DNA of 57,600 bases from an uncultured Rubrobacteraceae bacterium. Its GTDB lineage: Bacteria > Actinomycetota > Rubrobacteria > Rubrobacterales > Rubrobacteraceae. This document shows positions 11,120 through 52,696 of this stretch, piece by piece (position 1 is the first letter of the stretch; every line of letters starts with the position of its first letter). The notes below the pieces were generated by a model, which was not told the origin of the DNA, did no database searches, and was given only the letters and a program-made list of their open reading frames with translations. The position numbers and the translations under genes were made by a program. The stretch spans positions 1 to 57,600 of the forward strand of contig CADCVF010000001.1 of assembly GCA_902806095.1 (NCBI GenBank). The letters run 5' to 3'.

Positions 11120-11275
11120 CTACGCCCAGCGGCGCACCCTAGCCTTGTAGCTCAGATACTCCTCCCCGAAAGTGCGCTCCAGGTAACGCTCTTCGCGCCC
11201 GATCACCTCGCGCTGAATCACATACACCACCAGCGGAAGCAATAAGATGGCCCAGAGCGAGTTCCTTCGGTATGG
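11120..11275 (-). pseudogene. Remnant of isoprenylcysteine methyltransferase-family protein
   Basis: Immediately after the stop of the Mth938-like gene, the minus strand stays open for 51 codons. It reads PYRRNSLWAILLLPLVVYVI and then REERYLERTFGEEYLSYKAR before a TAG. This is the carboxyl end of membrane methyltransferases of the isoprenylcysteine carboxyl methyltransferase/phospholipid methyltransferase type: a last hydrophobic helix, then the conserved EERYLE..FGEEY motif. No start codon, ribosome site or amino-terminal helices remain. PYR joined directly to RNSLW suggests an internal deletion as well. I read it as a gene relic at the edge of the accessory block. Confidence 0.6.
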
Positions 11276-11647
11276 TCAGCAGGTCGAGTGGATGAGCGCT
11301 CCTACTTTCTCGGTCTCACGCAACTCGTCGTAGAGGCGGGCAGCCTCTACGGTCTGTGCAACGTGCGCGGGGACCTCCCTCTCTTCCAGCATCCTGAGGG
11401 TCTCGGGCGCGACATCGAGACGCTCGTGGAAGCCTCTGGAGAGGATAACGACAGTCGAGCCGCGTTCCAGCAACCTCTCCACGTCTGCCGGCTGTATGCC
11501 GGGATCGTGGCTCGTACCTGTCTCCTTCCAATCCCATTCTTCCGCGCCTCCAGGGTATAGCCTGGCGTCCTTGAAGGCACCGTTCTCGGTCTCGAGGCGG
11601 CCCCAGGAGAGCCTGGTTATCCGTGGAGAGTGCGTTGTCCGATCCAT
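11276..11647 (-). CDS. Mth938-like domain protein
   Basis: A 123-residue protein. It begins TTHSPRITRLSWGRLE, continues KDARLYPGGAEEWDWKETGT and GIQPADVERLLERG, and ends VGALIHSTC. These are the hallmarks of the Mth938/NDUFAF3-like fold, a small alpha/beta domain of unknown biochemical role in bacteria. The length matches the family exactly. The start ATG 11647 is taken because conserved sequence begins a few residues later; the open frame runs further upstream through the neighbouring gene and is not real there. It lies 19 bases downstream of the Asp23 gene on the same strand. Confidence 0.8.
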   Translation of the reverse strand: MDRTTHSPRITRLSWGRLETENGAFKDARLYPGGAEEWDWKETGTSHDPGIQPADVERLLERGSTVVILSRGFHERLDVAPETLRMLEEREVPAHVAQTVEAARLYDELRETEKVGALIHSTC

Positions 11648-25371: not shown

Positions 25372-25836
25372 TCAGGCGACCGTGAGGTCCAATTCGCTGG
25401 AGATCTCGATACTCCCTTTTACTGAAGCTGCCACCGGACAGCTATCGGCGTAGACTTCGAGGACCCTCTCTATGGTCTCGCGGTCGCTTTCGTCTGCGGT
25501 AAGGTGGAGGGTCTGTTTGATTCGCTTGATGACGAGCACCTTGCTCTCGACCTCGATCTCTCCGACCGTCTCGGCGTGGAGGTTCTCGAACGACACCTGA
25601 CGCGCTGCCAGCGCGCCCGAAAAGGTGCCGAGCAGTCAGCCGCCCGCGGCTGCGACCACATAGTCGAGCGTGGTGTCGTAGGGTTCGACATCCTCTGGAG
25701 AGACGCCGTAGTGTTCGGCGACCTCGCTGTGGACGCCGAACACTACAGGATCATCCTGAACAGGCAGATACGCGTGGCGGATCTTACCCTCCACCGGCTC
25801 CACCTTCACCTCCGAGACGTACTTTACTCCTGACAC
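25372..25836 (-). CDS. OsmC-family peroxidase with in-frame UGA (probable selenoprotein)
   Basis: Reading through one TGA at 25638-25636 gives 154 residues, the normal size of an OsmC/Ohr-like protein. The part before it ends LDYVVAAAGG; the part after it reads LLGTFSGALAARQVSFENLH in the same frame. UGA is codon 67, exactly where the family has its reactive cysteine, and the second cysteine is kept at about 133 (YADSCPVAAS). A hairpin 18 bases past the UGA fits the bacterial SECIS rules. OsmC-like proteins are a known selenoprotein family, so selenocysteine is the best reading. The product would reduce organic or fatty-acid hydroperoxides in the cytosol. Standard gene finders would split it into two fragments (25636-25836 and 25372-25596). 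Confidence 0.85.
25599..25617 (-). promoter_or_regulatory. Candidate bacterial SECIS hairpin
   Basis: On the mRNA, GGCGCGCU-GGC-AGCGCGUC forms an eight-pair stem with one G-U pair and a three-base loop. The loop begins 26 bases after the UGA and its first two bases are G. Known bacterial SECIS elements have the loop roughly 16-37 bases downstream and a G among the first two loop bases. Confidence 0.65.
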
Positions 25837-25881
25837 GCTCTCCTCCTCTCCTCTGTGTGTCCACAGTATACAAGCCCCTCT

Positions 25882-26136
25882 CTAGTGTGCGCTGGGTGGC
25901 GCCCGTCTCCCGCGCAAGGCGGAGAAGATGCCCCAGAGGCTCACCAGCGCCCAGGTACCTTCCAGAAGCAGGAAGCCCAGTTGCTGGTCTATGACGGCAA
26001 CCACCGTCAGCACTGCCGAGCCCAGGAAATTGGCTACTGAGTACCAGAGGTTAGAGGGCTGTATCCAACCAAACAGGTTGGCGGCGAAGGCGGCGAGTAT
26101 AGCCAGCGCGCCGAGAACCGAGATCACCTGCAGCAC
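25882..26136 (-). CDS. CBU_0592-type small membrane protein
   Basis: An 84-residue protein with three hydrophobic segments: VISVLGALAILAAFAANLFG, LWYSVANFLGSAVLTVVAVI and FLLLEGTWALVSLWGIFSAL. The sequence WIQPSNLWYSVANFLGSA and the segment spacing match the CBU_0592 family of bacterial inner-membrane proteins of unknown function. It is on the same strand as the AhpD-like gene and starts 22 bases after its stop, so the two may share a transcript. Nothing else identifies its role. Confidence 0.7.
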   Translation of the reverse strand: MLQVISVLGALAILAAFAANLFGWIQPSNLWYSVANFLGSAVLTVVAVIDQQLGFLLLEGTWALVSLWGIFSALRGRRAPPSAH

Positions 26137-26157: not shown

Positions 26158-26757
26158 CTATCTCGCCAGCGCGTGGTACTCCTCGTTCGGGATCATGCCG
26201 CAAGCCAGCGACATGCGGTTGGTGAAGTTATACATGCTTGCGATCTCTACTATATCCCAGACTTCCTCCTCGGTCAGCCCGTAACCCTTGAGGTGTTCGA
26301 GGTCTTCCGGATCGCAATCCAGCGGGCGCTCGGTGATCTTGACGGCGAAGTCCAGGATGGCCGTGCGGCGCTCGTCGAGGCCTGCCCTCCTGTGATCCAG
26401 CGTGATGCGGTCGGCGAGGATGGGGTCGCCGAGGGCCTGGCGAAGGGCGGCGCCGTGGGCGACCAGGCAGTAGAGGCAGCCGTTCGCCATCGAGACGGCG
26501 ACAGCGATCATCTCCCTCTCAGCAGCGTCCAGGTTCTGGGTTGGCTCGTGGAGCTGGCGGTAGTGGGCGAACCAGGCGGAGAGCCGCTCGGGACGATAAC
26601 TATAGGCCCTGAAGACGTTGGGCACGAACCCGACCATCTCTCGCGCCTTCCGAAAGAGTCCCCGCAACCCCTCCGGCAGCTCGGACTCTTCGGGGACGGA
26701 GAACCAGCTAATGGGCACGCCAGTCCCCTTGCGCGAGATGTGCTCGACCTCAGTCAT
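26158..26757 (-). CDS. Peroxidase-related AhpD/carboxymuconolactone decarboxylase-like protein
   Basis: A 199-residue protein of the peroxidase-related branch of the AhpD-like superfamily. The all-helical core contains [20 protein letters not shown] with the redox pair CxxC and the following histidine (AHGAALR), the proton-relay arrangement of AhpD. The carboxyl [16 protein letters not shown] is typical of this branch. It should cycle as a dithiol peroxidase or peroxidase partner. The neighbouring OsmC-type gene points to a peroxide-defence cluster. The ATG follows its upstream aldo/keto reductase gene by nine bases, so they are probably co-transcribed. Confidence 0.85.
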
Positions 26758-26766
26758 CGACGCCTC

Positions 26767-27756
<990 letters not shown>

Positions 27757-52552: not shown

Positions 52553-52599
52553 ACGCGCACCCTCCTTCCGGTCTGCGGGGATGCGCCGATAAGAGATTC

Positions 52600-52690
52600 C
52601 GAGATCTCCCTGCGCCGGCATTACCCGGATCAGGTACAGCGGGTCGGCACCTGTGTGCCCTCTCAGCCTCACGGCTCCCCGGTCTTTGTG
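52600..52690 (-). promoter_or_regulatory. TPP riboswitch (THI element)
   Basis: On the minus strand the conserved parts occur in order: GGGGAGCC, GGCTGAGAGGG, ACCTGATCCGGGTAATGCCG and CGCAGGGAGA. This is the thiamine-diphosphate aptamer. It lies about 50 bases before the thiT start, and the ribosome site of thiT is just beyond it, so thiamine diphosphate should switch off the thiamine operon. Confidence 0.95.
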
Positions 52691-52696
52691 GCGCTC

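Follow-up and report, generated by a model that had tools for sequence, protein, structure and literature searches.

Does the TGA that interrupts an OsmC-family gene of this uncultured Rubrobacteraceae bacterium end translation, or is it read as selenocysteine (Sec)? Within the window, by which we mean the whole stretch of 57,600 nucleotides analysed, the gene occupies 25372..25836 on the reverse strand. A GTG start codon at 25836-25834, with the Shine-Dalgarno sequence AGGAGG (25842..25847, reverse strand) lying 5 nucleotides upstream, opens a frame of 66 codons that meets a TGA at 25638-25636 (25636..25638, reverse strand) and then continues for 87 codons to a TGA stop at 25374-25372. The internal TGA is the only one in the frame; read through, it is codon 67 of a 154-residue protein whose second cysteine is residue 133. 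The preliminary description had claimed a single TGA in an otherwise complete OsmC-like frame with an intact second cysteine at about this position, and its coordinates and numbering were right; it also expected automatic annotation to split the gene, and standard open reading frame calling does yield two fragments, of 66 aa (25636-25836) and 74 aa (25372-25596). The read-through product matches the Pfam OsmC domain (PF02566) over residues 58-147 with an E-value of 8.3e-13 and 49 bits (cut-off 27.5 bits), and this match spans the TGA.

A scan for TGA-bridged frames over the whole window, judged by eye, gave no second convincing selenoprotein candidate. At about 11125-11280 on the reverse strand a frame continues past the stop of a gene ending IHSTC and resembles the C-terminal end of an isoprenylcysteine methyltransferase-like protein; this continuation is probably a fragment or a chance frame. 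The window also holds a TPP riboswitch at 52589-52691 on the reverse strand (69.4 bits).

Relatives of the protein were sought in 84,980 species genomes, which gave 75 loci of 44-92% identity, and all 75 have TGA at the position of codon 67. Their hosts are Rubrobacteraceae, Chloroflexota (Dehalococcoidia including SAR202, Caldilineaceae and Thermomicrobiales), other actinobacteria, and metagenome-assembled genomes (MAGs) labelled Acidobacteria, Poribacteria and Deltaproteobacteria. The protein shares 45-85% identity with 31 representative homologues and is conserved both N- and C-terminal of the UGA codon; the residues after the Sec position (U) are LLG, LTG, MTG, LAG or MIG in every locus. 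With 75/75 loci from several phyla agreeing in the TGA, its presence in the frame is not due to chance. Within the order, 27 of the 39 genomes have an OsmC match, with one TGA in each full-length copy. A search of a plasmid collection for relatives found none. One Rubrobacter-type copy of 71% identity (L026; JACCRT010000012.1, 2533-2991) lies in a MAG labelled Acidobacteria, by either a mislabelled bin or transfer. Two irregular copies were also observed: in G028 (L127) the pieces of a broken gene fall in separate matches in three frames, and in G033 a second, broken copy (L130) carries TGA plus TAA/TAG.

The distribution of the Sec and Cys forms was surveyed across 296 genomes of the phylum. 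The TGA form occurs in 31 of them (the G028 copy being in broken pieces), and stop-free forms occur in four, all of one family (f14), whose six genes have Cys exactly at the UGA position. SelA is encoded in 29 of the 31 TGA-form genomes, the two exceptions being drafts of 82% and 93% completeness, and in none of the four Cys-form genomes; the chance of such a split is 15/52360, or about 3e-4, by a hand calculation that ignores relatedness. In the tree, the Cys forms fall in one group, which is joined by two divergent Sec forms. Alignment of homologues at codon 67, which the preliminary description had proposed as a check, gives UGA in the relatives and Cys in the orthologues of SelA-less genomes. 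These observations bear on two rival readings of the TGA, as a nonsense mutation in a pseudogene or as a sequencing error. The host genome is a draft of 85 contigs, and the broken copies in a few relatives (G028, G033) would agree with such an explanation; against it stand the recurrence of TGA at one codon across phyla, the conservation of the protein to either side, and the presence of Cys, not Sec, where SelA is missing. Pseudogene and sequencing error were rejected on the cross-phylum conservation of the TGA, and we regard their probability as negligible.

Sec decoding calls attention to the rest of the genome, a 3.83 Mb draft of 98.6% completeness. It contains a tRNA-Sec scoring 64.3 bits (cut-off 47), for which ARAGORN gives the anticodon tca (UCA), together with selA (7.7e-122) and a selB that includes the C-terminal winged-helix domain; selA, selB and the tRNA-Sec gene are contiguous, in that order, on one contig (C85). 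Four formate-dehydrogenase-like genes carry an in-frame TGA, each within the motif where one is expected (SCNRAUHAASV, ARIUHSSTV). Because it has tRNA-Sec, selA, selB and these four genes, we conclude that the host genome decodes Sec. The four genes (L184, L185, L187 and L188) form two similar clusters on separate contigs (C25 and C12), which reflect either duplication or mixed strains. A search for further Sec proteins among glutaredoxins found none with TGA.

Thus the machinery anticipated by the preliminary description was recovered as regards the UCA tRNA-Sec, selA and selB, but selD was not found over the cut-off of 125 bits in the 85 contigs, where the weak matches reached 48 and 27 bits. 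A selD gene is present in 31/39 genomes of the order, with one in-frame TGA in each full-length copy, and Rubrobacter xylanophilus is credited with five selenoproteins, SelD among them (PMC1794560). In at least one draft (G007) the selD match starts at the first base of its contig, and in another (G009) only the first part of the gene is found; comparison of the selD flanks in two relatives showed no shared neighbours. The absence of selD from the host draft is probably an assembly gap.

The sequence directly 3′ of the UGA contains a putative bacterial SECIS element (25587..25634, reverse strand) with a predicted folding energy of -25 kcal/mol, synonymous constraint over codons +1 to +12 and conserved apical pairing. 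Its apical hairpin, GGCGCGCU-GGC-AGCGCGUC (25599-25617, reverse strand), places the loop 26 nucleotides from the UGA and has a G in the small apical loop. All six apical pairs are retained in 26 of 28 family sequences, against 3% expected from synonymous sampling, and among 29 family sequences two that share a residue also share its codon with a probability of 0.80-1.0 over codons +7 to +12, compared with 0.26-0.78 upstream of the UGA. The stability of the whole region is not unusual (z of -1.12 against dinucleotide shuffles, mean z of -0.45 against synonymous shuffles), and it is no stabler than its synonymous shuffles because all of these are GC-rich; we therefore set the weak folding-energy z-scores aside and relied on position-specific apical pairing and codon choice. 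In the other phyla the apical hairpin has two main forms, GCG-CTG-GAR-GCG (29/50) and GCC-CTT-GAG-GCN (19/50), and adjacent codons thus vary in concert. At codons +8 to +11 of non-Rubrobacter loci (e.g. L035 and L065) this coupling is seen as the pairs GCG-CTG and GCC-CTT. The six Cys forms retain just 2-5 of the six apical pairs. The aligned codons indicate that selection among synonymous codons maintains the GC-rich hairpin behind the UGA, as would be expected of a bacterial SECIS element.

An AlphaFold model of the protein, made from a 32-row alignment, has a mean pLDDT of 87. OsmC/Ohr or OsmC-like proteins fill the first 32 places among its structural matches, led by 2onf with a Z-score of 14.4 and followed by E. 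coli, Thermus and other structures; in sequence, the protein is 9-17% identical to solved OsmC/Ohr chains. In a profile alignment two cysteines of 2onf fall on residues 67 and 133, in keeping with the earlier assignment of codon 67 to the peroxidatic cysteine of OsmC/Ohr proteins. Sec67 and Cys133 are invariant in the family, as are Arg20 and Glu41, which perhaps correspond to the Arg/Glu pair of Ohr. The predicted fold is that of OsmC/Ohr, and the UGA and Cys133 take the two active-site cysteine positions.

Could the UGA instead specify an ordinary amino acid, through recoding to Trp or Cys or through near-cognate readthrough? Reassignment of UGA throughout the genome was rejected because UGA is also the normal stop codon of the OsmC gene itself. 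The selA-selB-tRNA-Sec cluster, the constraint on the SECIS-like hairpin and the correspondence of the UGA to the catalytic Cys likewise argue against any ordinary residue, and we consider this reading very improbable. Taken together, the conserved UGA, the decoding machinery, the Cys of SelA-less orthologues and the constrained hairpin support the earlier proposal that the UGA is read as selenocysteine. We place at about 95% the probability that the product is a thiol/selenol peroxidase of the OsmC family whose UGA 67 is read as Sec by way of SelB, tRNA-Sec(UCA) and a SECIS hairpin.

We propose that SelB and tRNA-Sec(UCA) would decode codon 67 under the direction of the hairpin, which starts a few nucleotides past it, so that Sec would be physically inserted at residue 67. 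Its selenol would then attack an organic hydroperoxide, the presumed substrate, and Cys133 would serve as the resolving residue for position 67, in the manner of the two cysteines of OsmC and Ohr. Selenium may make the protein a more reactive peroxidase. It is very probable that the bacterium produces a small protein for defence against peroxides, with selenocysteine at its reactive site.

The surroundings of the gene bear on the choice of substrate. OsmC is the last member of a probable four-gene run on the reverse strand, which begins with an aldo/keto reductase (26767..27756) and continues with an AhpD-like gene (26158..26757; CMD family, TIGR01926 peroxidase-related), whose CLYC motif has Cys and not Sec, and with an 84-residue probable membrane protein (25882..26136) that lies upstream of OsmC and has no Pfam match; a gene similar to the last adjoins OsmC in one further locus (L012). 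Among 16 Rubrobacter-type loci, many of them cut by contig ends, an aldo/keto reductase is near OsmC in nine and an AhpD-like gene in four. In other phyla no AhpD-like gene was found beside OsmC, and the aldo/keto reductases there are weaker matches, all of them at a distance of several kilobases. The peroxide-defence neighbourhood of the preliminary description is thus real as to the AhpD-like protein and the aldo/keto reductase, but it is conserved within Rubrobacteraceae only. This restriction, and the identity of just 9-17% to solved chains, would suit a protein that contains Sec but is not an organic-hydroperoxide peroxidase, its substrate being instead, for example, persulfides or a disulfide partner. 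Set against this are the invariance of both active-site cysteine positions, as Sec67 and Cys133, and the AhpD-like protein and reductases that are the neighbours here; we view a different substrate as possible, though rather unlikely. The finding draws attention to a widespread OsmC subgroup whose genes are split by standard annotation, and the Sec and Cys forms of this probable peroxide-defence enzyme make a matched pair on which the benefit of selenium can be tested.

Comparison with known systems indicates where this protein belongs. The solved OsmC/Ohr peroxidases 2onf, 1ukk, 1nye and 1n2f share its predicted fold (Z 11.8-14.4) and the two active-site cysteine positions at 12-17% identity, and differ in having Cys where the present protein has Sec. 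OsmC-like selenoproteins are known in bacteria, as the preliminary description stated. They were described from the Sargasso Sea in 2005 and later from the GOS data and in reviews, in every case with a UxxT motif (PMC1088965, PMC2398784, PMC13188914). The present family resembles it in its OsmC domain (PF02566/COG1765), in Sec at the catalytic Cys position, in a SECIS after the UGA and in having Cys homologues. It is set apart by its motif, which is U-L-L-G-T or U-L/M-T-G-T (UxxG); UxxT is found in none of the 75 loci, all of which are UxxG. The literature searched by term, as distinct from the Sargasso sequences themselves, gave no name for a UxxG subfamily. The NCBIfam model NF041052 (OsmC_like_Se, 'OsmC-related (seleno)protein') belongs to the same superfamily and matches our protein weakly (3.7e-07; 30.1 bits, below the curated cut-off of 95); it matches 12 of 32 family members, all weakly (best E-value 1.2e-07), and its strongest member in the phylum (L168) is CxxT. 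The UxxG motif, the score of 30 against 95 bits and the CxxT of that strongest member therefore make a second OsmC selenoprotein subfamily probable. We lean towards regarding UxxG as a separate subfamily still awaiting curation, which extends from Rubrobacteraceae to Chloroflexota (including SAR202) and several further phyla and occurs mostly in the Sec form; the Cys forms observed here all belong to one actinobacterial family that lacks SelA, and standard gene calling divides the gene into two fragments. With this gene Rubrobacteraceae gain a soundly supported selenoprotein of a broadly known kind and, arguably, of a new subfamily.
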